The notes under the pieces were generated by a model. The model was not told where the DNA came from, searched no databases, and saw nothing but the letters and a program-made list of their open reading frames with translations. The position numbers were made by a program, and so were the translations under genes. This document shows, piece after piece, positions 1 through 14,254 of a stretch of DNA of 24,726 nt. The stretch lies in IMG/VR virus record IMGVR_UViG_3300008262_000519, positions 1 to 24,726 of that record. One strand, given 5' to 3'. How positions within the stretch are numbered: position 1 is the first letter of the stretch; every line of letters begins with the position of its first letter. Source of the stretch: a virus.

Positions 1-1396
1 TGAAAGATACTTTCTGAGCAGCGGTCAAAGGATTCTTCCCTTTTTTATCTGTGGTATGACTAGGAAACACGTAGTAATCATTACCTGCAGCATACTCCTT
101 GACTTTATTTATCAGTAGCTCATGACCCGTAGTAGGAGGATTGAAACGCCCAAACGTGAATACAGCAACCTTTGCACCTTCGCCAACAGGAGGACGCCAG
201 GACTTCTCAAGCGTGAAGTTAGCACGATAGAACTCAAGACGATCAACAATCTTGACTGCCTTGCCATCTACGATAGCAACATAACCTTCTGGTTTGGTAA
301 CCACAAAGTTATCACCACTACGAAGAAACACACGAGTATCGCTGAGACCAGCAAGCTTCAGGTTGATCAGGTTCTTAGCATTCGTGAAGGAGTTATACAT
401 CACGATGAAGGCTTTGAAAGCGGACTTATTACTCTCCAAATAGGAGATACCGTTAGCAAGAATATCGCGGTACTGTGCCTTAGACTTCTCAGTTTTCAGA
501 CTCTCTACTTTCTCAACCAGAGACTTCTCAAACGCTTTCGTGAAACCTTCGATGAACTTATTCACATTAGTAATCGTCTTACCTTCCTTCACATAGGAGT
601 TGGTAAAACGCTTCATGGTATAACCAAGTGTGAACTGCTTTCCTGCTTCGTGAGCGATAATCTCAAGAAACTCTTTAGCAGCAGGAGCATTTCTAGAAAC
701 AACAGAGATAACAGACTTCAGCACACGCTCCTCAGAAGGAGTGAGACCAGATTTGGCGCTGATATTATCTACAGTAGCAGTTGCCAGGAATACGTTACGA
801 GTAGATTTAAGATTGAACTGATCAACACCAAAACCAGCAGACAACGTATTGACTGGACCAGTACCGCCGTAATACGTATGAAATACAGCACCGATCTTAG
901 CGGTGTTTACTGCTTTACCCAGATCGCTATCTAGAGGCCAAGCATAAGTTAAGGTGTTAGGGGTAGCAGTATAGAAACGTTCACCATCAATCGTTTTGGT
1001 TTGAACGTCTTCATCCGTGAAAAGAAGATCTCCCTGAATAACTCCTTTGATGTTAAGTTCAGGAAAATACTTCAAACAATACTTCAGTTTCTTGGCAAGG
1101 TCAGGAATCTCGCCATGGTTCTTATCAATATCTTCTTCGGTAAAATTTACCTTGGGTTCTTTCTTGTTGAATACAGACTTGGTGCCAACAAAGAAGTTTC
1201 CGCTCTCTGGGTCGATGCCACAAACCACAGCAGGAGCGCCATCCCATTTGGTAGTAACCTTGACGTTGCCAGTAGGACGCCCGCCAAGTTCATCAATAAA
1301 GCTTTGAATTAGATCCTTGGAGGCGACATATCCATTATACCCATAATTAATCAGCTCGTCCTCCAGGTGCTCCAGGTGCTTGTTCTGGGTTGCCAT
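1..1396 (-). CDS. RNA-ligase-like / cytidylyltransferase-like fusion protein (3' end cut off)
   Basis: The reading frame is open from an ATG at 1396 to the window edge (465 codons, no stop), so the C-terminus is missing. The N-terminal part holds KWDG at residues 50-53 followed by APAV, and IQGDLLF near 120-126. These look like motif I (the adenylated lysine, KxDG) and motif III of the RNA ligase/nucleotidyltransferase superfamily. After about 280 mostly helical-looking residues without a family I can name, residues 415-425 read FGRFNPPTTGH, the HxGH-type signature of cytidylyltransferase/NMN adenylyltransferase-like enzymes, and HTTDKKGKNPL follows. I infer two nucleotide-handling domains on one chain; substrates (RNA ends, NAD metabolism or other) cannot be told from sequence. 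No Shine-Dalgarno sequence is evident; a late-promoter-like box lies 23 nt upstream. Cyanophages carry a related large protein usually annotated as hypothetical. The frame is certain, the function is inferred. Confidence 0.85.
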   Translation of the reverse strand, partial: MATQNKHLEHLEDELINYGYNGYVASKDLIQSFIDELGGRPTGNVKVTTKWDGAPAVVCGIDPESGNFFVGTKSVFNKKEPKVNFTEEDIDKNHGEIPDLAKKLKYCLKYFPELNIKGVIQGDLLFTDEDVQTKTIDGERFYTATPNTLTYAWPLDSDLGKAVNTAKIGAVFHTYYGGTGPVNTLSAGFGVDQFNLKSTRNVFLATATVDNISAKSGLTPSEERVLKSVISVVSRNAPAAKEFLEIIAHEAGKQFTLGYTMKRFTNSYVKEGKTITNVNKFIEGFTKAFEKSLVEKVESLKTEKSKAQYRDILANGISYLESNKSAFKAFIVMYNSFTNAKNLINLKLAGLSDTRVFLRSGDNFVVTKPEGYVAIVDGKAVKIVDRLEFYRANFTLEKSWRPPVGEGAKVAVFTFGRFNPPTTGHELLINKVKEYAAGNDYYVFPSHTTDKKGKNPLTAAQKVSF

Positions 1397-1407
1397 CTAC
1401 GGAGAAA

Positions 1408-1435
1408 GGGGGTCACCCTTATTTAGGTTCCCCCC
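1408..1435 (-). terminator. Hairpin terminator after the MazG gene
   Basis: On the minus strand a 5-bp G:C stem (1431-1435 with 1408-1412) continues through a symmetric GA/GA internal loop into a 3-bp stem (1426-1428 with 1415-1417), with an 8-nt loop, and is followed by UUU. It starts 13 bases after the MazG stop codon and closes the operon that begins near 7614. The loop contains the late-promoter-like box, so the same few bases may stop one transcript and start another. Confidence 0.55.
1420..1427 (-). promoter_or_regulatory. Late-promoter-like box CCTAAATA
   Basis: Read on the minus strand the box is CCTAAATA followed by AGG and GTG; the T4 late consensus is TATAAATA. It ends 23 nt before the ATG at 1396. 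A near-identical string, GATAAATA followed by AGG and TG, sits at almost the same distance before the structural gene at 23208. The repeated sequence and spacing are seen directly; use by gp55-directed polymerase is inferred. Confidence 0.5.
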
Positions 1436-1447
1436 TATCATAGCAAA

Positions 1448-1852
1448 TCAGCGGTCGTCTGCTGCTCGGTTTTCAGAGTAGTAGGCGTCGAATGTGCCTT
1501 CAGGATACCGTTTGGACAATTTGCGAATGTTACCATCCAGCACCTGTTCCATAGAAATTCCTAATGCTTGAGTTGCCTGAGCGACATACCACATAATATC
1601 ACCCAACTCAATAATAAGATGCTCTCGGTTATCGTCGTTCCAAGGCTTACCTTGGAAAACCATCTTCTTAATGATCTCAAGAAACTCACCGCCCTCAGCG
1701 TTAATGCCAACGCCAGCAGTAAGCAGTCGTTCAATATTGGCGCCCTCACGATCAAGCTCGCCAATTCGATCAGCAAAGTCAACAAAGTTCGTAGAAGCTT
1801 TGCTTGTAACTGCTGCCACAAACTCTTCATAACGAGAAAATTCAATAGTCAT
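1448..1852 (-). CDS. mazG: MazG-like nucleotide pyrophosphohydrolase
   Basis: All-alpha NTP pyrophosphohydrolase of the MazG family, 134 aa, which hydrolyses (d)NTPs to monophosphates and pyrophosphate in the cytoplasm. The metal-binding ExxE is seen at E53/E56 in EGGEFLE and the ExxD at E82/D85 in ELGDIMWY. The length fits a single-domain phage MazG rather than the two-domain bacterial protein. I chose the ATG at 1852 because it overlaps the gp41 stop as ATGA; a GTG three codons upstream (1861) is also open. It is the last gene of the polymerase-uvsX-gp41 operon. In cyanophages MazG has been proposed to adjust nucleotide pools or ppGpp signalling; the substrate here is not decided by sequence. 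Confidence 0.9.
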   Translation of the reverse strand: MTIEFSRYEEFVAAVTSKASTNFVDFADRIGELDREGANIERLLTAGVGINAEGGEFLEIIKKMVFQGKPWNDDNREHLIIELGDIMWYVAQATQALGISMEQVLDGNIRKLSKRYPEGTFDAYYSENRAADDR

Positions 1853-3237
1853 ACATTCCACTCAGCAAATTTAGATAGACGGTTTTGTGTTTGTTGAAAC
1901 TGCGCGAATTCCTCACCAGGATCTTCGGCATCGATACTGATTGATGAAGCATCGTCTGCTACATCATACAGCTTCATCTTCGCTCTGTCAATTCCCACCA
2001 TGAATTTTCGAGAGGCAGTTGGGTCGTTGTATCGGTTTTTAAGTTGTTTGACCATGATGCGACCCTGTTGTTCAAGTTCCTCAGTAGAGATAAGGGCAAA
2101 CATAAAGTCAGCAGTGGCAGGAAGACCAAAAGACTCAGAAGTATCGGTAAGGTCAGGGTCACTATTACCATAACCACTACGAGTAGTTTGAGTAGCAGAG
2201 ACAATAGGTACATTATTCTCCACAGCAAGACCGCGCAGCTCTTCAGCAATCGCTTTGACATACGTGTAAGAATTGACAATCGCACCTTTATACCTCGCAC
2301 TAGCACAAATGTTTAGGTAATCCACAAAGATGATTTGTGGTTTGAAGTCTTTCTTTAAGGAAAGGTCTGAGAGTAGTGCCTTGAAGTGTCCGACGTGTGC
2401 GGATGCTGTTGGATACTCTTTGATAATAAGTTTGCCTCTAGTCTTCCTAGCGATCTCTTGAACCTTAGAAGTAAAGAGAACTTCAGGTAGTTCAGGAATA
2501 TCTTTGACATTTACGTTCAGAAGGTTTGCGTCAATTCGCTCAGCAATCTTCTCCTCTGCCATTTCACATGTAATGTAGAGTACGTTGTACCCCTGAGTGA
2601 GGCAGGCACTAGCCATGTGGCACATGAATAGACTTTTCCCGACACCTGTACCAGCAAGAGCGATGTTGAGAGTCTTATTAGGGAGACCACCTTTGGTAAT
2701 GAAGTTGAACTTCTCAAGATCGAACGGGATCTTTTCTTCAGTTCTGTGATAAAACTCATAGCGTGCTTCTGCTTGTTCAATATAATCGTGGCCTATGTGT
2801 TCGTCGAACGATACTGCCAGGGCCTCTTGTAAGATACCTGGGATCGCATCTTTTGATAGTTTCTTATCGCCTCCATCTGCGATCTTGATAGATTGCATGA
2901 GGGCGAGATAGATTGCTCTGTCTTGACACCACTTTTCTGTGGAGTCAAGGAGCCAGTTGAAATCAACCCATTCATCTCCAAGGGACTTGAGGGTAGATAG
3001 CGAACTCTGGAATGTATCTTCTGTAAGATCGTTTCTAGACTGAAGGTTGATTGAGAGAACTTCTTGAGTAGGTACTTTGTCGTACTTACTGGCAAAGTCA
3101 GCAACCTCTTCGAATAAGATTCGTTCATGATATTCATTAAAATATTCTGCTTTTAGGAAAGGAACCACCTTGCGATAATACTCCTCATTAAAAAGAAGAT
3201 TACGCAAGATAGTTTCTTCAATACGCTCAACTGCCAT
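1849..3237 (-). CDS. gp41: Replicative DNA helicase gp41 (DnaB-like)
   Basis: Hexameric 5'-3' helicase that unwinds the phage replication fork. In this 462-aa protein the Walker A is AGTGVGKS at about residues 195-202 and the Walker B is IIFVDYLNI at about 302-310, within a DnaB/RecA-type ATPase core, preceded by a helical N-terminal domain of about 170 residues. T4 gp41 is 475 aa, so the protein is full length. An upstream TTG at 3267 would add ten residues, but the ATG at 3237 begins MAVERIEET and overlaps the end of uvsX by only 11 bases, so I prefer it. The 3' end overlaps mazG by ATGA. No separate primase gene is visible in this window. Confidence 0.95.
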
Positions 3238-4240
3238 AGGAGAACTCTTGTTTTGCTGCTTCTTCAAGTTGTGCCATCACTTCTTCTGTGAAGTACTTCT
3301 CGGGATCAGCAAGAATAACAGAAGGATAAACGGAAGATTCCCCAACAACGATCCGATTGCCTTTGCGGGTGAATACTCCGTATTGCTCACCCAGTTCCAG
3401 TAGTCCGTAATAGCGGTCCAATCCACGTTGATCAAAATAGAGTCTGGTTTCAACTTTGCTACCTTCCTTTGTTAGACGGGACTTCTTCGCTTCACACTTG
3501 ATAATGTTACCAACAACTTCAGTTCCATCTTTCTCTTTCTTCTTGCCAAGATAGATGATAGTAGAAGCAGCATACTTCAGACCAGTACCGCCACCCATTT
3601 CCTTAGTTGGAACATAAGAACCAATCACATCATAAGTGTGGTTAGTAACAATCATAGGCACACCTGCTTGACCCAGTTTCAAGGTTAGCACACGGAATGC
3701 ACCTTTGATGAGCTGAGATTTAGTCATGTCACGAACCTGCTTGTCGTTGGCAACATCCTCCATCTCTTTGGAGGTAGAAAGCATACCAAGAGAATCGAGA
3801 ACGAATAGCATAGGCACTCGCTCATCTTTAGGTTCCTTCATATACTTGTCGAGGATACGACAGGCTTGGGTACGGAACTCTTCGATTGTTCCCACAGGCA
3901 TGATAATCATGCGCTTGGAATCAATACCACGAGTCTCAATCATCTCCCGAGAAATTGCCGACTCAGATTCAAAATAGATGACCCCGCCGCTGGGATTAGC
4001 ATCAAGAAAGTTGCGAACAACAGAAAGAGCAAAGAAAGTTTTGCCCGTGCTACTTTCACCTGCGAGGGCAGTAACCTTATTTGACGGGATTCCACCAAAC
4101 AAAGATCCACTAACGAGTGCGTTAAAAATATAAGAGCCAGTATCGACAAAAGTAGTGATGTCGCCAGCAGCAACACCATCACTAACAACGCTAGCGAACT
4201 CATTTCCAGACTCTTTAATTACTGTATCTAGGAATCCCAT
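3227..4240 (-). CDS. uvsX: UvsX RecA-like recombinase
   Basis: Strand-exchange ATPase (337 aa; T4 UvsX is 391 aa) that forms filaments on single-stranded DNA for recombination-dependent replication and repair. Walker A is GESSTGKT at residues 61-68 and the Walker B strand is PMLFVLDS at 143-150, followed by a loop region containing the sequence [11 protein letters not shown]. Its loader UvsY is encoded in this window at 22217-22690. The ATG at 4240 lies 12 bases inside the preceding 56-aa gene, and its stop lies inside the first codons of gp41, so translation of the three genes is probably coupled. Confidence 0.95.
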
Positions 4241-4398
4241 TTAGTTACCTCATCTTCATACATGTTTACGTAAGAGTAATTACTACTCATCATTTTTGCA
4301 AATGCTCTGGCAGTTTCGTACTCCTCAAAGCATTTAACATTTTCTGGACCGATCTGCCCAACGACATGATTAGTCCAACTCACCACCCAGATGTTCAT
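4228..4398 (-). CDS. Small conserved-type protein between gp43 and uvsX, 56 aa
   Basis: A short ORF starting [20 protein letters not shown] and ending EDEVTKWDS. Its ATG overlaps the gp43 stop as ATGA, and its last 13 bases overlap the start of uvsX, leaving no spare sequence between the three genes. That tight packing, and the lack of any other explanation for the 154 bases between gp43 and uvsX, are the reasons for calling it. The sequence suggests a short beta-strand N-terminus (WVVSW, VVGQI) and a helix around residues 24-38 with [15 protein letters not shown] do not recognise a family. Function unknown. Confidence 0.75.
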
Positions 4399-6884
4399 TC
4401 AAAGAAACTCCCAATCGTAATGGTTTTTTCGTGTTGCCATCCAATACATTCTAACACATTTTTGAGCGGTTCGAGGAACGACTTTTCAAATTGTGTCTGA
4501 TAATCCACGTACTTCTCAAGACCAAACTCTTTAGGCAGTTCACCAAAGAAGCTAATAGCATTCTCATGAATGGGATTAGGAGTCTTGAGATACATGAACT
4601 TGATCTTCTCTCCTTCCTGAATGAGAGGATGCTTGTTTTCAATCTTGTACTTCTTCACATAATGATTGTAGAGAAGGGCACCTCTTACTTGGATTGGGGT
4701 TTTCTCCCTGTAGATTTCGGTGGGATGGCGATACTTTGCCAGATTGTTGACGCCTCTTGGGAACGCGACTTCGCTGTATGGTCTTTCTTTGGTTTCTGCT
4801 CGGACATCATGGATAAAATTGATAAGTTCATCATTTGTTTTGCCGATAATAATCTTAAACGCTGCATACAACTTGTCCCTAAAATAAGCTGGGGTGGAAG
4901 ATCGTGCTGTCTCAAGACCCATGATCTTCATCTTGGGTTCTTTATATCTAACACCTTCACTATCCCAAACGTTGAGAATGTAACGCTTCTTCGCAGTCCA
5001 GATACCACGATCAGCGATGTTCTCACGCTTCATACTCATCTTTTGCTCATATGCCGAAACATAATTCGCAAGTTCCTGATAAGAGGATTCTATGAACGGC
5101 TCCAACTTGTCTTGACAGATCTTGTCAAGTATCCCAACAATTGCTGCTTTATCGCCAGACTTATTACCAAAGAATTTAGTAACAAGAGGTCCAAGGTTAA
5201 GATAGATGCTGTCAGTGTCGGATGCGATGACATAATCCTTATCTTCTGTTTGCAAAAGTTTATTTAGATACTCGTTCATTTTGTTCTCGATCCAGCGGAT
5301 AGAGAGCTGACCAGAAAGAGTAATCGCTTCTGCATTAGCAAGACGATAATAGCGGAAGTGCTCGTTACCGATAGCACCATAAGCGGAGTTAAGAGAGATC
5401 TTACGTGCCATCTGAATGTTATTACAGCGGGCGATCTCTTTCATTAGTTCCACAGTAGGAGTTTTCTCGTACTGCTTCTTTGCCTCAAGCATTTTATTCT
5501 TGAAAATCACACGACCATCATACATCTTCTTCATCATCTGAGGAAGAAAACCATGAACATCTTTGCGATACTGAGCACCGTTGGGGCACACAGCATATTC
5601 ACCGTCAATCTCAATCTTCTTCTGAAGCATGAGATCTACGTTTGCTTTGGGATGTCTGGTGTCCAACAGAGTTTCTGGTGAGATGTTGTACTGCATGATC
5701 AGGTGAGGATATAGAGAGTTCAAGTCAAAACTCACCACCCAATCATAGAAACCAGGAATAGGCTCCTTCACATATGCGCCAGCATACTTCTCAGTTTTAG
5801 TTGCTTCCTTCTTAGGAGGGATAGCGACCTTACGCTTTAGCAGTTCAACGTAGATGTAGTTGTCCCACATACGAACCTGAGAAAACACATCCTCATAATT
5901 CACCTTAGCATCGTATGCCATAGTGAAAGCAAGTTCGATCAACTTCATCTTGTCGTCTAGTTGATCTACCAGGCGAACGTCATGAATGTTGTATTCAATA
6001 AACTTCTGCCAGTCACTTTCATAGAACTCTTTGAAGGTGTCATACTCGCTGTGGTCGAGTTTCTTTGCACCAAGTTCTACATTACAGATGTGATCCAAAC
6101 GATAGGACTCTTGGTTTGTATAAGTGAATTTCTTATACAGCTCAAGATAATCAAGCGTAGAGATGCCAAGCATATCGATAGAGAAGTTCTTACGACCCTT
6201 GATAAAGATCTCACGCTTCGATACGAGTTTCCAAGGAGATAGTAGTTTTACAAACTTCTCTCCAAGGATACGATCAACGCGGTTGTGAATGTACGGCATG
6301 TCGAACAACTGCACGTTCCAACCAGTAATTACATCAGGATAATTCTCCTGCCAATAATCCAGGAAGGCACCCAACATGCTTTCTTCTGATCGGAAATGCA
6401 TGTAATCCACCATGGCATCTGCGTTATTGAATGCTCTCGCTCCAAACACAGTAATGCGACCAGAGAAGCTGTCTTTGATACTGATGGCAAGGATTTCCTG
6501 ATCAGCAGTTTCGATGTCGGGGAATCCGTTTTCTGCAGCAGTCTCAATATCGATTGTGAATACACGAATCTTTGAGGAGTCAAACTTAACTTCATCCTCA
6601 GGATGCTGTTCTGCTATGTACTGATACAAGAAGCGTGAGTTTCCATAGATCTCAAAGTCATCAACTTCTTTATATTGTTTCACAAAATCTCGTGCTTCTG
6701 TGATGGAACCAAACTGATGAGGTTCCACACAGTCACCCTCAAGAGTGCGCCATTCTGAATAGTTTTTTGTAGGCAAATACAGCGTAGGGTTGAAAGGAAC
6801 CCTGACGCTGTAGCGATTGCCATTTTCATAACCACGGACCAGCAAACGGTTGCCAGCTTGTTCAACGTTTGTGTAAAACTTCAT
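4395..6884 (-). CDS. gp43: DNA polymerase gp43 (family B)
   Basis: Replicative polymerase with proofreading, 829 aa (T4 gp43 is 898 aa). Exonuclease motif I is DIE at D112/E114, Exo II lies at ITGWNVQLFD (about 186-195) and Exo III at YNIHDVRLVD (about 298-307). Polymerase motif A is DLNSLYPHL from D387, motif B is KISLNSAYGAIGN (about 495-507) and motif C is DTDS at 556-559. The C-terminus ends TIGSFFE, a plausible sliding-clamp-binding tail for gp45, as in the RB69/T4 polymerases. All catalytic motifs are intact. The start ATG overlaps the upstream stop as ATGA and the stop overlaps the 56-aa gene the same way. Confidence 0.98.
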   Translation of the reverse strand: MKFYTNVEQAGNRLLVRGYENGNRYSVRVPFNPTLYLPTKNYSEWRTLEGDCVEPHQFGSITEARDFVKQYKEVDDFEIYGNSRFLYQYIAEQHPEDEVKFDSSKIRVFTIDIETAAENGFPDIETADQEILAISIKDSFSGRITVFGARAFNNADAMVDYMHFRSEESMLGAFLDYWQENYPDVITGWNVQLFDMPYIHNRVDRILGEKFVKLLSPWKLVSKREIFIKGRKNFSIDMLGISTLDYLELYKKFTYTNQESYRLDHICNVELGAKKLDHSEYDTFKEFYESDWQKFIEYNIHDVRLVDQLDDKMKLIELAFTMAYDAKVNYEDVFSQVRMWDNYIYVELLKRKVAIPPKKEATKTEKYAGAYVKEPIPGFYDWVVSFDLNSLYPHLIMQYNISPETLLDTRHPKANVDLMLQKKIEIDGEYAVCPNGAQYRKDVHGFLPQMMKKMYDGRVIFKNKMLEAKKQYEKTPTVELMKEIARCNNIQMARKISLNSAYGAIGNEHFRYYRLANAEAITLSGQLSIRWIENKMNEYLNKLLQTEDKDYVIASDTDSIYLNLGPLVTKFFGNKSGDKAAIVGILDKICQDKLEPFIESSYQELANYVSAYEQKMSMKRENIADRGIWTAKKRYILNVWDSEGVRYKEPKMKIMGLETARSSTPAYFRDKLYAAFKIIIGKTNDELINFIHDVRAETKERPYSEVAFPRGVNNLAKYRHPTEIYREKTPIQVRGALLYNHYVKKYKIENKHPLIQEGEKIKFMYLKTPNPIHENAISFFGELPKEFGLEKYVDYQTQFEKSFLEPLKNVLECIGWQHEKTITIGSFFE

Positions 6885-7138
6885 TCAAGACATTCAAGAT
6901 AACGAGCAAGCAACTGCTTACTTGGATTGGTAACAACAGTCAGATCCGAAGACCTGACGTTGAACTCACGTTCAGCAGCATAGGGTGCCCATGGACTGAT
7001 CTGACCTTCATAGTCTAGCACGTATGGTTCTATCATCCACACGTCGGGGTCACCTGGCAAAGTGTCCCCTTCAACTGGTTCTACCTGAGCGATGATCCAC
7101 TCATTCGCCAGCTTCAGTAGATTCGCCGCTATTTCCAT
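6881..7138 (-). CDS. Hypothetical protein upstream of gp43, 85 aa
   Basis: Begins MEIAANLLKLANEWI, a likely helix, followed by a Pro/Asp/Glu-rich part with PGDPDVWMIEPYVL and ending LLARYLECLE. The ATG at 7138 lies 38 bases inside the preceding gene; a TTG at 7180 is open but would lengthen the overlap to 80 bases. The stop overlaps the gp43 start as ATGA, strong evidence that it is translated. I do not recognise a domain; the middle could form a small beta fold. Its position beside the polymerase suggests a replication-related role, which is inference only. Confidence 0.75.
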   Translation of the reverse strand: MEIAANLLKLANEWIIAQVEPVEGDTLPGDPDVWMIEPYVLDYEGQISPWAPYAAEREFNVRSSDLTVVTNPSKQLLARYLECLE

Positions 7139-7487
7139 CAGTTTCCTCAGGGTAGAAAAGTTGTTCTTCAGTAAATCCAAATTGCTTCAATTCACCAACA
7201 TAGTTATCAAGAATACCATTATCTGGATAAACAACGCTGATAATATGATCACCAGAAATTCTATGTTCTTGAATTGGACTATATGGACACCACCTAGTAT
7301 ATTTGATGGGAATAGTCCCATCTTCATTCTGATCTCCAAGTGATAGTGTAAATGGATAAATCAGTCGATATCCAACTACCCTCTCATCATCTTTTACTTC
7401 ACCAAATAGACAAAGAATCCTTTCTCCTGTAGTAATAGTTACTACACGAACATTATGATTAGTCTTCAGTTGATTCTGTTCCGTCAT
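7101..7487 (-). CDS. Hypothetical beta-rich (possibly Sm-like) protein, 128 aa
   Basis: Starts MTEQNQLKTNHNVRVVTI. Residues 14-95 contain repeated short strands with TTGERIL, a turn, YPFTLSL, a WCPY segment and GDHIISV, a layout that recalls small five-strand barrels of the Sm/LSm type. The tail (EETDGNSGESTEAGE) is acidic and probably unstructured. The protein at 20348-20746 shows the same ordered pattern (SGEEVV, a Pro-Leu strand, a Trp, RDHIITM), so the two look like distant paralogues. It sits between a 34-aa ORF and the 85-aa gene in the polymerase operon. No function can be assigned; RNA or DNA binding is only a guess from the fold impression. Confidence 0.8.
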   Translation of the reverse strand: MTEQNQLKTNHNVRVVTITTGERILCLFGEVKDDERVVGYRLIYPFTLSLGDQNEDGTIPIKYTRWCPYSPIQEHRISGDHIISVVYPDNGILDNYVGELKQFGFTEEQLFYPEETDGNSGESTEAGE

Positions 7488-7563
7488 TTTCTAGTTCTCG
7501 CTTTTGTGCAATTTTGTTTTCGTATGCTGTTTGCAATCCTGGTTCTGGATTGCTGATTGTCAT
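7459..7563 (-). CDS. Short ORF at the head of the polymerase operon, 34 aa
   Basis: Reads MTISNPEPGLQTAYENKIAQ and continues as a charged, helix-prone peptide (KRELENDGTESTED). It overlaps the next gene by 29 bases and is the first ORF after the promoter-like sequence at 7585-7614. There is no clear Shine-Dalgarno sequence, and the length is near the limit of what can be trusted. Support is the position, the lack of any other ORF between promoter and next gene, and sensible amino-acid composition. It could instead be a leader sequence. Confidence 0.45.
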   Translation of the reverse strand: MTISNPEPGLQTAYENKIAQKRELENDGTESTED

Positions 7564-7584
7564 TACACAATCATATGGAATCTT

Positions 7585-7614
7585 ATTATCAGTTTGATAC
7601 TAGTGTAACATCAA
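7585..7614 (-). promoter_or_regulatory. Sigma70-type promoter for the polymerase-uvsX-gp41 operon
   Basis: On the minus strand TTGATG (7614-7609), an 18-base spacer, then GATAAT (7590-7585). It lies directly after the hsp20 terminator and before the first ORF of an eight-gene run ending at the hairpin at 1408-1435. Two-box similarity only. Confidence 0.45.
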
Positions 7615-7637
7615 AAAAGGGGCACGTCAAGTGCCCC
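7613..7637 (-). terminator. Rho-independent terminator after hsp20
   Basis: Perfect 7-bp stem GGGGCAC/GTGCCCC (7637-7631 pairs with 7625-7619, read on the minus strand), a 5-nt loop and six U residues (7618-7613). It begins 7 bases after the hsp20 stop codon. Confidence 0.9.
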
Positions 7638-7643
7638 GAATAT

Positions 7644-8048
7644 TTAGAACCATTTTTTCTTCTTCTGTTTCTCGGGAAGTTCTTTCCTTAACACAATTGT
7701 CAAGAGACCATCTTTAAAATCCACACTATCAACTTCTACATCTTCTGCCATCTGCCAGTTGCGAGTAAATGATCTCTGAGAAATTCCTTTGTGTTGATAC
7801 TTCCTTTCCTTTTCTCGTTTTTCTTTTGAAGCAGATACCGTCAGAACATGTCGTTCAGTAGAGACCTCAATCTCTTCGCTTGCAAATCCAGCAAGAGCGA
7901 CTTCAAGTACGGTTGTGCCATCGTCTCCGTTAACCACGTTGTAAGGTGGATAACTCGATCCATTTCCAGCAAGAGCTTCCAGTCTTCTGAATGTTTCATC
8001 GAACCCAATAGAATGCGGTGTATAAGTTTCCCAATTAAATGTTACCAT
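7644..8048 (-). CDS. hsp20: Small heat shock protein Hsp20
   Basis: ATP-independent chaperone that holds unfolded proteins, 134 aa. The alpha-crystallin domain spans about residues 35-122, with PPYNVVNGDD at its start, VALAGFASEEIEV in the middle and DGLLTIVLRKELPE at the end. Hsp20 genes are common in T4-like cyanophages, where a role in scaffold or host-protein maintenance has been suggested. The C-terminus ends in a run of lysines (KQKKKKWF), and I see no I-x-I/V oligomerisation motif after the domain, which is unusual. The gene stands alone: -10 box and leader hairpin upstream, its own terminator downstream. An AGGA lies 3 bases before the ATG. Confidence 0.95.
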   Translation of the reverse strand: MVTFNWETYTPHSIGFDETFRRLEALAGNGSSYPPYNVVNGDDGTTVLEVALAGFASEEIEVSTERHVLTVSASKEKREKERKYQHKGISQRSFTRNWQMAEDVEVDSVDFKDGLLTIVLRKELPEKQKKKKWF

Positions 8049-8069
8049 AGTCCTAAAAAGCGACGTTTA

Positions 8070-8094
8070 TGTGTGACCCGTTAGGCATCACACA
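8070..8094 (-). promoter_or_regulatory. Hairpin in the hsp20 leader
   Basis: A 7-bp perfect stem TGTGTGA/TCACACA (8094-8088 with 8076-8070 on the minus strand), with CC and GG facing each other inside an 11-nt loop. It lies between the -10 box and the hsp20 start, about 20 bases before the ATG, and has no U-tract. It may stabilise the mRNA or regulate translation; it does not cover the AGGA, so a thermometer role is not supported by this stem alone. Confidence 0.5.
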
Positions 8095-8098
8095 TTTA

Positions 8099-8104
8099 AT
8101 TATA
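8099..8104 (-). promoter_or_regulatory. -10 box TATAAT before hsp20
   Basis: An exact TATAAT on the minus strand, 50 bases before the hsp20 ATG and just after the regA terminator. No -35 hexamer is recognisable 16-18 bases upstream, where the terminator stem lies, so the promoter may need another activator or a phage-modified polymerase. Confidence 0.5.
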
Positions 8105-8113
8105 CAAGAACAT

Positions 8114-8140
8114 AAAAAAAGAGGGGTGTTGAAACCCCCC
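8114..8140 (-). terminator. Rho-independent terminator after regA
   Basis: GGGGT/ACCCC stem (8138-8134 with 8127-8123), a 6-nt loop, then UCU followed by a U run (8120-8114). It starts 15 bases after the regA stop codon and ends the long clamp/clamp-loader operon. Confidence 0.85.
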
Positions 8141-8154
8141 ATGAATACTACGGT

Positions 8155-8580
8155 TTACTCAACCGTTGTCTTTTTTCTTCCGATGTTGTACTTACTTTCC
8201 AGAGTCCATTCATCCTTTTCTTTAAAGGCAAGAACTTTGATCTGATTGAGGGGAGCAAGATCTTCAATCTTTTCTGGAGTTACAATTGTAATCAATCCCC
8301 AATCACTCAGAAGTTGAATGATACGATTACGGCGCTGAATATCATTCAACGATAGATTAGTGTTCTTACCATCAAGGGCAAACAGCTCCTTGAAATGAAC
8401 AATATAATACTTACCTTGTTTATGCAAGATATGGCAAGACTGATAGATCTTCTTTTCTTTGCGCGATGCCACTCCAATCCTTGTCAGAGTTTCTCTCACT
8501 TTCAAGAAGTCGTCGGGTTCATTCAGAACCACTTCAACCATATCAGTTTGCTTCCACTGGATTTCAGTTTCAACACTCAT
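8155..8580 (-). CDS. regA: RegA translational repressor
   Basis: RNA-binding protein that represses translation of early phage mRNAs by binding around their start codons. It has 141 aa against 122 aa for T4 RegA. The family is recognised from the overall sequence: VEVVLNEPDDFLKVRETLTR near the N-terminus, QSCHILHKQGKYYIVHFKE in the core and LNDIQRRNRIIQLL with WGLITIV later. Extra residues at both ends explain the length. The start ATG overlaps the gp62 stop as ATGA, keeping the T4 pairing of 62 with regA. It is the last gene before a strong terminator. Confidence 0.95.
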   Translation of the reverse strand: MSVETEIQWKQTDMVEVVLNEPDDFLKVRETLTRIGVASRKEKKIYQSCHILHKQGKYYIVHFKELFALDGKNTNLSLNDIQRRNRIIQLLSDWGLITIVTPEKIEDLAPLNQIKVLAFKEKDEWTLESKYNIGRKKTTVE

Positions 8581-8804
8581 CTCTTTCCACCTTTATTCAA
8601 TACCTTTGTAATATGATCTAGCTGATCCTTGGTGAGAATCCTGAGTGCTTGGAGAGCTTTATCGTCATTATAACCATAATACTCTTTGACTACATCAAGA
8701 TAATCAATAGAATCTTTTTTCGCCCAAGGAGAGAAACGCTTCCTCGGTTTGACACTATTTAGTTGGTTGATTGAGTAGAGGTAGTCTTTCAGTTGGTACG
8801 TCAT
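8577..8804 (-). CDS. gp62: Clamp loader small subunit gp62, apparently internally deleted
   Basis: With four gp44 subunits, gp62 loads the gp45 clamp onto primer-template DNA. Only 75 aa are present here (T4 gp62 is 187 aa; cyanophage versions are, from memory, about 120-140 aa). The N-terminus MTYQLKDYLYSIN and the C-terminal part from RPKR-like KPRKRFSPWAKK through VKEYYGYNDDKALQALRIL both look like the usual ends of the cyanophage protein; the central part that normally carries a helical segment with a Cys/Phe-Pro motif is absent, joined near residue 14 (about 8757-8770). The frame is kept. The stop overlaps regA as ATGA. The start lies 50 bases inside the upstream membrane-protein ORF. 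Activity is uncertain. Identity is from position and remembered family sequence. Confidence 0.75.
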   Translation of the reverse strand: MTYQLKDYLYSINQLNSVKPRKRFSPWAKKDSIDYLDVVKEYYGYNDDKALQALRILTKDQLDHITKVLNKGGKR

Positions 8805-8970
8805 TCCAGTGTCTCACAGCGTTAGCAACAATAGCAATATTAGTAATCATGTACGACAAAAAGATAAGGCTGCGAATAATCGCAACCTTATCAGATTCTC
8901 TGTCGCAATTTGACGCTTTTTCTCCAAGCGCCTTACACCACAGTCTCCAAGATATACGCAAGTATTTCAT
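8755..8970 (-). CDS. Small membrane protein, 71 aa
   Basis: Starts MKYLRISWRLWCKALGEKAS, continues with a charged stretch and then one hydrophobic segment at about residues 31-50 (IIRSLIFLSYMITNIAIVAN) that would span the membrane once, followed by a short polar tail. The ATG overlaps the stop of the 47-aa gene as ATGA, which supports translation. The last 50 bases overlap the start of gp62 in another frame; this long overlap may be a by-product of the gp62 rearrangement. Similar small one-span proteins occur near gp62 in cyanophages as I remember them. Function unknown. Confidence 0.7.
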   Translation of the reverse strand: MKYLRISWRLWCKALGEKASNCDRESDKVAIIRSLIFLSYMITNIAIVANAVRHWNDVPTERLPLLNQPTK

Positions 8971-9110
8971 TTGAACACAGCAGTAACAGAAACAACTTTA
9001 GCAGTAGGATTACGAGCAAGAGCAGTAACCCGAGCATCTTGATAATTTGCCGCTTCAACAATTTCGTCAAACAGACGACCAGCGACGTAGAGTTGAACTT
9101 TAATTTTCAT
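8967..9110 (-). CDS. Small protein, 47 aa
   Basis: Reads MKIKVQLYVAGRLFDEIVEA, then a helix-like ANYQDARVTALARNP and a final strand TAKVVSVTAVFK. The beta-helix-beta impression and clean composition suggest a real folded mini-protein. Its start lies 11 bases inside the end of the methyltransferase gene and its stop overlaps the next ATG as ATGA, so it is embedded in the operon. I do not recognise a family with a known function. Confidence 0.75.
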   Translation of the reverse strand: MKIKVQLYVAGRLFDEIVEAANYQDARVTALARNPTAKVVSVTAVFK

Positions 9111-9945
9111 AGTTGAAAAGGACGAGCTCCTTGCGTTGTGCTTGATCTATTGTATACGACCCGACCGACCGCATGGTGTAGGTATGTGCAAATTCTCCAA
9201 CTGTCCACCCCTGGAACCGCTCCTTCACGAGGTTGGAATTGTTGTAGGAAACCAGTTGAGGGCAAACAAACCGATCACAATCAGTAGCAAACTTATCGTG
9301 ATCAAATCCTTTATGCATAGATCCTCTATTCCCATAGAGGTTATCCTTAATGTCATAAGGAGGATCAAGATAAACAAATACATCTTTGCGATCTGTCAAC
9401 AGTTCTTCGTATGACACATTAGTTATCTTCCAATTAGAGATTAACTCTTGGTACTCGGAAAGTCTTTGGATACCAGCAACGGAGAAGTTTGAATCTGATG
9501 CTTGTGCTGAGAAAGAGGACGATTGAGTAAGACCACTAAAACTGCACTTGTTAAGGATATAGAAACTAATAGCGCGGTGAAAGCGATCACATTTTCTTGG
9601 ATCTTCTGAAAGATATTCTTTTGCTTCAAGGAAAAGTACCCGTGCTTTAGTTTGATCGTTGTGTTTTTCTTTGAGTTTAAGAAGTTCATCTTGAAGTTCC
9701 TGTCCATTATATTGGAGTTCACACCAAAAATTAAATAATGGTTCATATAAATCGTTTACCCAAATATCAATATTTGGATAACGCTTTGCAACTTCAAGTG
9801 CTACAGAACCTCCACCAAGAAAAGGTTCACGAAACTCTTTATAGTCTTTCAAATCAGGCATGAATTGAAAGAGTTTAGGAAGTGCTCTACTCTTCCCCCC
9901 AGGGTATCTCAAGGGAGTTTTCAGGGATTTTGTAGTCTGGGGCAT
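9100..9945 (-). CDS. Dam-type DNA adenine-N6 methyltransferase
   Basis: Transfers a methyl group from S-adenosylmethionine to adenine N6 in DNA. In this 281-aa protein the N-terminal motif LRYPGGKSR is at about 12-20, the SAM-binding FLGGG at 42-46, VNDLYEPLFNFW at about 63-74 is typical of the Dam/D12 class, CSFSGL lies at about 134-139 and the catalytic DPPYD at 194-198. All key motifs are present, so it should be active. GATC recognition is likely from the class but not proven. It lies between gp44 and gp62, which are adjacent in T4, so it looks inserted into the clamp-loader cluster. Its ATG lies 59 bases inside the preceding ORF, with the conserved PGGKS coded inside that overlap. Confidence 0.93.
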   Translation of the reverse strand: MPQTTKSLKTPLRYPGGKSRALPKLFQFMPDLKDYKEFREPFLGGGSVALEVAKRYPNIDIWVNDLYEPLFNFWCELQYNGQELQDELLKLKEKHNDQTKARVLFLEAKEYLSEDPRKCDRFHRAISFYILNKCSFSGLTQSSSFSAQASDSNFSVAGIQRLSEYQELISNWKITNVSYEELLTDRKDVFVYLDPPYDIKDNLYGNRGSMHKGFDHDKFATDCDRFVCPQLVSYNNSNLVKERFQGWTVGEFAHTYTMRSVGSYTIDQAQRKELVLFNYEN

Positions 9946-10129: not shown

Positions 10130-10187
10130 GCATCTCCTCCATCATAATAAATTTAGGTTCCTTCTCAAGAAATTTCAGCAAACTCAT
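10047..10187 (-). CDS. Short ORF coupled to gp44, 46 aa
   Basis: Reads MSLLKFLEKEPKFIMMEEML, then a highly charged helix ending TRECKRSK. Its ATG overlaps the gp44 stop as ATGA, the same junction used by most genes here. Against it, 83 of its 141 bases overlap the 80-aa gene in another frame. It may be a real small protein or mainly a coupling ORF that brings ribosomes to the TTG start at 10129. Confidence 0.55.
   Translation of the reverse strand: MSLLKFLEKEPKFIMMEEMLERLENEPERQYRWIRENYTRECKRSK
10134..10140 (-). promoter_or_regulatory. Ribosome binding site GGAGGAG for the TTG start at 10129
   Basis: GGAGGAG on the minus strand, four bases before TTG (six from the GGAGG core). Strong Shine-Dalgarno sequences are rare in this window, so this one argues for the TTG start. 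It lies inside the 46-aa ORF. Confidence 0.55.
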
Positions 10188-11128
10188 TTGAATTCACAAC
10201 TCATCATGATCTCTGTCAGACATGCAAGCAAGTTTACTTCCTGATCTGGAACAACACTAATGTCTCGCATGTACTTGGCAATAATCAAAACTGCTTCTGG
10301 GATAGCAGCGGGTTTCAGAACCTCATACAAACTATCATAGATCTTACGCATCACCATGCTAGGATCATTATCCAGATGCTGCACAACCCAGTTCTTCACC
10401 GTAGTAAACTCTTTCTTCTTAAGAGCACCAAGAAGGGCATCAAGATTGACATCGGCAACGTCAACAAGAATAGCAGAGGAAATAGCTCCAGTAGCAGCAT
10501 AACGCTGACACTCGTTAATGAGGCGACGCCAATCAGGATAGTACCGCTTAACAAGTTTAGCAAGAACTTTGTCTTCATATTCTACGTTCTCATGCGTCAG
10601 GATAGACTTCAGGCGCGTGAAGAACTCACCCTGAAGTTGCGTTGCCTGATCTGGTTTGATCCTGAAATCAACGACCGTGCAACGAGAGTGCAGCGGTTCG
10701 ATGATCTTATTAATGAAGTTACAAGTGAAGATGAAACGGCAGTTGCCATGAAACTCCTCTACAGCGGTCCTCAGGGACAGTTGCACGTCGTTGGTGGTGT
10801 TGTCTGCCTCGTCGATAATGACGACTTTGTGGGACGCTCCAGAGGTCAAGGAGACAGTTGTGGCGAATTGCCTGACACGGTTGCGAACGGTGTCTAGGAA
10901 GCGCCCCTCGTCGGACCCGTTGATGACGATGTAGGACGCTCCAATCTCCTCACACATCGCTTTAGCGATGGTGGTCTTACCGACGCCTGCTGTGCCCGTC
11001 AGGAGCAGGTTAGGGAGCTCTCCCTGGTTGACAAAACCCTGGAACACTTCCTTAGTGCTCGCAGGGAGAATGCAATCTTCAACAATAGTAGGACGGTACT
11101 TTTCAACCCACAAAAACTCTTTACTCAT
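10184..11128 (-). CDS. gp44: Clamp loader ATPase subunit gp44
   Basis: AAA+ ATPase that, with gp62, opens and loads the gp45 clamp (314 aa; T4 gp44 is 319 aa). WVEKYRPT near the N-terminus is the classic clamp-loader opening; Walker A is GTAGVGKT at about 45-52, Walker B DEAD at 106-109, and the arginine-finger SRC at 148-150. All motifs are intact. I chose the ATG at 11128 over the TTG one codon upstream. The stop overlaps a short ORF as ATGA. The speD gene ends three bases before the start, splitting gp44 from gp45 in a way common to cyanophages but not T4. Confidence 0.97.
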   Translation of the reverse strand: MSKEFLWVEKYRPTIVEDCILPASTKEVFQGFVNQGELPNLLLTGTAGVGKTTIAKAMCEEIGASYIVINGSDEGRFLDTVRNRVRQFATTVSLTSGASHKVVIIDEADNTTNDVQLSLRTAVEEFHGNCRFIFTCNFINKIIEPLHSRCTVVDFRIKPDQATQLQGEFFTRLKSILTHENVEYEDKVLAKLVKRYYPDWRRLINECQRYAATGAISSAILVDVADVNLDALLGALKKKEFTTVKNWVVQHLDNDPSMVMRKIYDSLYEVLKPAAIPEAVLIIAKYMRDISVVPDQEVNLLACLTEIMMSCEFK

Positions 11129-11131
11129 CAA

Positions 11132-13744: not shown

Positions 13745-14254
13745 TCAGACCCAGGACGGTTTGCGAACTGGCATACGGAGGTAGTTGCTTGCGACCCAGG
13801 GCTTACTAGCGATATACATTTTGTAAGCATCGAACGTAGAGATGTTCGTATCATATTTGTATTCATCTGGCATAGCTCTAGCAAAAGGAGTTACATTATC
13901 CAACTTACCTTTAGGAAAAAGATAGTATGCCTGTATTAAAGTATTCTGACAGGCATGAGTTTTATTGTATCGTAGGGTGTATTCATCACATAAATTCAGT
14001 CCCCATTTGATAAGCCAGTAGGCGTTATCCACGGTGTCTGCCGCCCATTTCGTACAAGGGTGGTTGCGAAAGGCACCTTTCTCTGTCGAATAGGGCGTCC
14101 CGTCTGCTTTTCCCAAAGTTCCGTAAGAATGATACCAAGAAGAAGCAACGATGCTAAGCATCTGGCAACATTCCAACGGCATTTTGACAACATGTTTGTC
14201 TGGAAGACAGATAGCACTTTCGGCAGGAAAAGGATGTGTGACAAAGATATTCAC
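13745..14254 (-). CDS. Conserved-type phage protein with a KHVVKM motif, 169 aa
   Basis: Starts MNIFVTHPFP and has DKHVVKMPLECCQML at about residues 19-33, then HPCTKWAADTVDNAYWLIKWG at about 64-84, LCDEYTLRYNKTHACQ at about 87-102 and a C-terminal VASNYLRMP. This arrangement of His, Lys, Cys and Trp motifs recurs in many phage proteins of unknown function that I recall; conserved His/Lys/Cys residues would suit an enzyme or metal site. It starts at a GTG overlapping the CobT-like stop (GTGA) and sits between the two MoxR/VWA-system genes. Function unknown. Confidence 0.85.
   Translation of the reverse strand: MNIFVTHPFPAESAICLPDKHVVKMPLECCQMLSIVASSWYHSYGTLGKADGTPYSTEKGAFRNHPCTKWAADTVDNAYWLIKWGLNLCDEYTLRYNKTHACQNTLIQAYYLFPKGKLDNVTPFARAMPDEYKYDTNISTFDAYKMYIASKPWVASNYLRMPVRKPSWV

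Follow-up and report, generated by a model that had tools for sequence, protein, structure and literature searches.

We found that the 75-aa gp62 encoded by an uncultivated cyanophage genome fragment is very probably an artefact of metagenome assembly, and that the phage itself most likely makes a gp62 of ordinary length (about 128 aa), serving as clasp (A) subunit in the gp44/62 clamp loader. The fragment, referred to here as the window, is the whole 24,726-base IMG/VR record that was analysed; it comes from a T4-like cyanophage (Kyanoviridae) and spans the replication cluster, its nearest isolates being S-WAM2, S-RSM4 and S-H9-1, with about 81% nucleotide identity.

The gp62 gene and its neighbours

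The gp62 ORF (8577-8804, minus strand) lies between the gp44/dam block and regA, as expected for a T4-like gp62, and its stop overlaps the start of regA. The features of this region are as follows.

8155-8580, minus strand: regA, intact (PHROG 242, E 8e-66; PF01818)
8577-8762, minus strand: gene 62, retained 3' part (LNSVKPRKRFSPWAKK...GGKR), from alignment to intact gp62
8762-8764, minus strand: junction 1, where 159 bp are missing, with a 1-nt ambiguity (A at 8763), from alignment and contig comparison
8763-8804, minus strand: gene 62, retained 5' part (MTYQLKDYLYSINQ), from alignment to intact gp62
9100-9945, minus strand: Dam-type adenine methyltransferase, an ordinary neighbour (PHROG; PF02086; same gene in relatives)
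10184-11131, minus strand: gp44, clamp-loader ATPase subunit, intact (PHROG 168, E 2e-127)

The 75-aa product aligned end to end with the gp62 proteins of S-WAM2, S-RSM4, S-H9-1, ACG-2014e/i/h and S-CAM4, interrupted by just one clean, in-frame gap, 53 residues or 159 bp long. In all intact relatives the absent residues stand between SINQ and LNSVKP, and the window protein corresponds to residues 1-14 joined straight to residues 68-128 of a 128-aa gp62. The earlier note, made from the sequence alone, had described a 75-aa gp62 with both ends in frame and a centre of roughly 50 or more residues missing, and the alignment bears this out. The protein is still recognised as gp62 by PHROG 30971 (E 1.3e-25) and PHROG 225 (E 6.6e-20) over residues 14-74, and its C-terminal half, with the RKRFSPW region, is present as judged from the PHROG match and the conserved columns, the segment absent at this locus being the central one (cyanophage gp62 residues 15-67). 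Its match to Pfam PF16790 covers profile positions 70-120 only and does not reach the gathering score (20.3 bits vs a cut-off of 27). No flanking repeat was found at the gp62 junction, the shared sequence being 1 nt.

The methyltransferase gene had been taken in the earlier note for an insertion pointing to a rearranged cluster. However, a Dam-type gene is also located between gp44 and gp62 in S-WAM2, S-RSM4, ACG-2014e/i/h, S-CAM4 and S-SSM5; being an ordinary neighbour in relatives, it gives no indication that the locus has been rearranged, and its insertion was rejected as a cause of the gp62 gap. Two small reading frames were observed in addition. One, a 169-aa ORF at 13745-14254 (minus strand) between the peptidase and cobS genes, resembles by eye a 170-aa hypothetical gene that directly precedes gp62 in ACG-2014e/i and S-CAM4, and by this comparison the position of the small gene seems to vary between relatives. 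The other, a short frame (WRLWCKALGEKASNCDRESDKVAIIRSLIFLSYMITNI...) at 8805-8970 (minus strand) between a 47-aa ORF and gp62, is similar at the DNA level to the loci L009 and L032 and to S-WAM2, and possibly encodes an unannotated small membrane protein.

Conservation of gp62 among relatives

Complete copies of gp62 in the fetched loci numbered 169, some contigs having been fetched more than once; 167 of them were 127-139 aa long, and the two short ones were that of the window (75 aa) and a broken copy in contig L048. In the phage collection, 859 of the 933 records matching full-length gp62 covered 80% or more of the protein at a single place, with 934 gp62 places in the 933 records, or essentially one each. 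The stretch lost from the window gp62 is strongly conserved among relatives, no other viral contig carries its junction, and no 75-aa relative was found in the alignments with other T4-like cyanophages. A short gp62 as a family trait was rejected, since the layout is absent from all relatives.

A freshly arisen minimal gp62 would be a working, putative clasp in which the N-terminal end and the tryptophan region remain and most of the middle is dispensed with. Both ends are indeed in frame, and the protein retains the conserved Trp in RFSPW, aligned with Trp 111 of T4 gp62; but no relative has such a layout, and the conserved lost stretch aligns with T4 gp62 up to about residue 98, meaning that much of the fold would be gone. 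We regard this explanation as very improbable. A split gp62, with the missing part encoded elsewhere in the genome, is barely conceivable, given that a tblastn search for the missing residues elsewhere in the window, itself a genome fragment, yielded nothing better than E 0.39 and that phage records have essentially a single gp62 place.

Exact strain-specific probes, which may miss near-identical records, revealed no siblings of the left flank of the window, so that an intact gene 62 of the very same strain was not seen. A probe over the start of gp62 identified two further contigs, L105 and L106.

A same-strain contig and a second junction

Contig L107 (IMGVR 3300008108_000764, 13.5 kb) represents the same strain as the window, with 16 mismatches in 8765 bp. 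The two are 99.80% identical over window positions 1-7584 (7584 bp) and 99.92% identical over 7583-8763 (1181 bp), and these alignments are free of small gaps. The first base of L107 corresponds to window position 8763, exactly at the gp62 junction; thus, the gp62 join of the window coincides with the end of an independent contig. In addition, L107 contains 230 bp that are absent from the window at 7583-7584 and are also present in most relatives covering the site (77 locus comparisons). This defines two more features.

7582-7585, minus strand: junction 2, where 230 bp are missing, with a 2-nt ambiguity (AA at 7583-7584), from L107 and relatives
7456-7584 (end approximate), minus strand: headless remnant of a conserved hypothetical gene after hsp20, from translation of L107

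Through the loss at junction 2, this conserved small gene is deprived of its start and some 75 codons. The two junctions are about 1.2 kb apart in the window, and there is no N at either join.

From ACTAAATAGTGTC on, the sequences of the window and L107, L009, L110/L194 and L048 agree at every base for 114-126 nt, with different bases to the left. Because several lineages share these identical bases to the right of the edge, the right edge of the gp62 gap is a natural strain-collapse point. At junction 2, the blocks in common with the other lineages fetched are shorter, none exceeding 48 bases, so that the strain-collapse argument is weaker there and the evidence consists of the disagreement with L107. 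The edge carries CTAAATA, similar to a late-promoter motif; this is, however, conserved coding sequence with four occurrences in the window, and the candidate was dismissed. Repeat-mediated or site-specific deletion was likewise rejected, since only 1-2 nt are shared at both joins and no repeat-mediated deletion is thereby indicated.

Gaps in other contigs

Contig L048 (IMGVR_UViG_3300008262_001477) comes from a second lineage, about 85% identical to the window strain over long stretches. Its gp62 gap measures 118 bp and shares the right edge of the window gap but has a different left edge, and a stop follows directly after the join. A further 79 bp are missing from hsp20 and 80 bp from gp43 (DNA polymerase). 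The three gaps, at about 1720 (gp62), 2726 (hsp20) and 4626 (gp43), are all frame-shifting and are best read as assembly faults, as no phage would be expected to be viable with a frame-shifted polymerase. Elsewhere, 191 bp are missing from the peptidase gene of L185 (3300008107) at about position 5968, and there is a gap of about 140 bp in uvsW of L219 at about position 3030. The gp46 gene of L219 also appears short by about 180 bp.

Gaps of this type are otherwise nearly absent. A census of gaps inside genes, 25 bp or longer and each supported by at least two references (the genes of S-WAM2, ACG-2014e and S-RSM4), revealed only six in 267 partly overlapping loci with 1.79 Mb of aligned CDS: three in L048, one in L185, one in L219 and one in the window (gp62), the 230-bp gap of the window being left out because it crosses a gene start. 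Contigs with gaps made up two of the four from the 3300008107/8108/8262 sets vs one of 147 others (Fisher p = 0.0016, a value that is descriptive, as the test was made after the pattern had been seen). The window is grouped with these sets on account of its near-identity to L107.

Origin of the short gp62

The assembly artefact may be explained as follows. Strains of this cyanophage lineage share the near-invariant block from ACTAAATAGTGTC in gene 62, and the assembly graph would collapse there; the strain-specific left part would then have been joined directly to the shared block, leaving out 159 divergent bases, presumably skipped during scaffolding or the resolution of a tangle across strains. 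A fault of this kind probably also led to the loss of the 230 bp at 7583-7584. Some points count against an artefact: a gap would be in frame by chance in one case in three, the joins show no N, and the end of L107 at the junction would also be expected if a real deletion variant coexisted with a full-length form.

A real 159-bp deletion, either segregating in the phage population or marking defective genomes, would accommodate several of these data, namely the clean, in-frame junction, the end of L107 as the branch between full-length and deleted forms, and the deletion in L048, which differs but has the same right edge; the deleted molecules may replicate poorly alone or be helped by full-length co-infecting phage. 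However, this reading requires a second, unrelated deletion of 230 bp only 1.2 kb away, which is contradicted by same-strain L107, together with three deletions in conserved genes of L048, DNA polymerase included, while the joins lack repeats and no second record of the junction exists. We therefore consider a segregating or defective deletion improbable, and think it unlikely that the 75-aa protein stems from either a real deletion or a minimal gp62. If real, the deletion would indicate how small a gp62 a clamp loader can manage with. Among the three options raised in the earlier note, that of a defect or assembly error is the one favoured here, whereas a minimal gp62 has no supporting relative and a part supplied from elsewhere was not found in the window.

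With an assembly artefact as the preferred explanation, the case is a caution that conserved genes in IMG/VR contigs can be 80-230 bp short with no N to show it, in some cases with the frame preserved. Such silent losses result in plausible but false short proteins, which comparison with a same-strain contig exposes.

Comparison with known systems

Complex strain graphs in viral metagenomes, resulting in fragmentation and inter-strain chimeras, have been described as a general problem (PMC11443906). The present case is like strain-collapse misassembly in that a join or contig end is located at the border of a strain-shared block and several gaps occur per contig; it differs in that PMC11443906 covers fragmentation and chimeras generally, a silent in-gene loss such as that of the window not being described there.

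In gene order, gp44-(small ORF)-dam-(47-aa ORF)-gp62-regA-...-hsp20, the window is like S-WAM2, S-RSM4, S-H9-1 and the ACG-2014 cyanophages, and both retained ends of its gp62 align closely with the proteins of these phages (PHROG 225 and 30971). The difference is that their gp62 proteins are 127-129 aa long, whereas that of the window is without the central 53 residues.

T4 gp62 (187 aa) forms the clasp, or A subunit, of the gp44/62 clamp loader (PDB 3u5z, 3u60 and 8uh7). Full-length cyanophage gp62 is homologous to it by profile (E about 6e-6), with residues 26-113 corresponding to T4 residues 56-148. An AlphaFold model of the gp62 of an intact relative was of poor quality (mean pLDDT 45) and was set aside. 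Judging from the T4 studies (PMC8121543, PMC3331839), the loss of 53 residues would probably remove much of the collar that holds the pentamer together. Trp 111, the T4 counterpart of the tryptophan kept in the window protein, is among the two most mutation-sensitive residues of T4 gp62 and buttresses unpaired template bases (PMC8121543).
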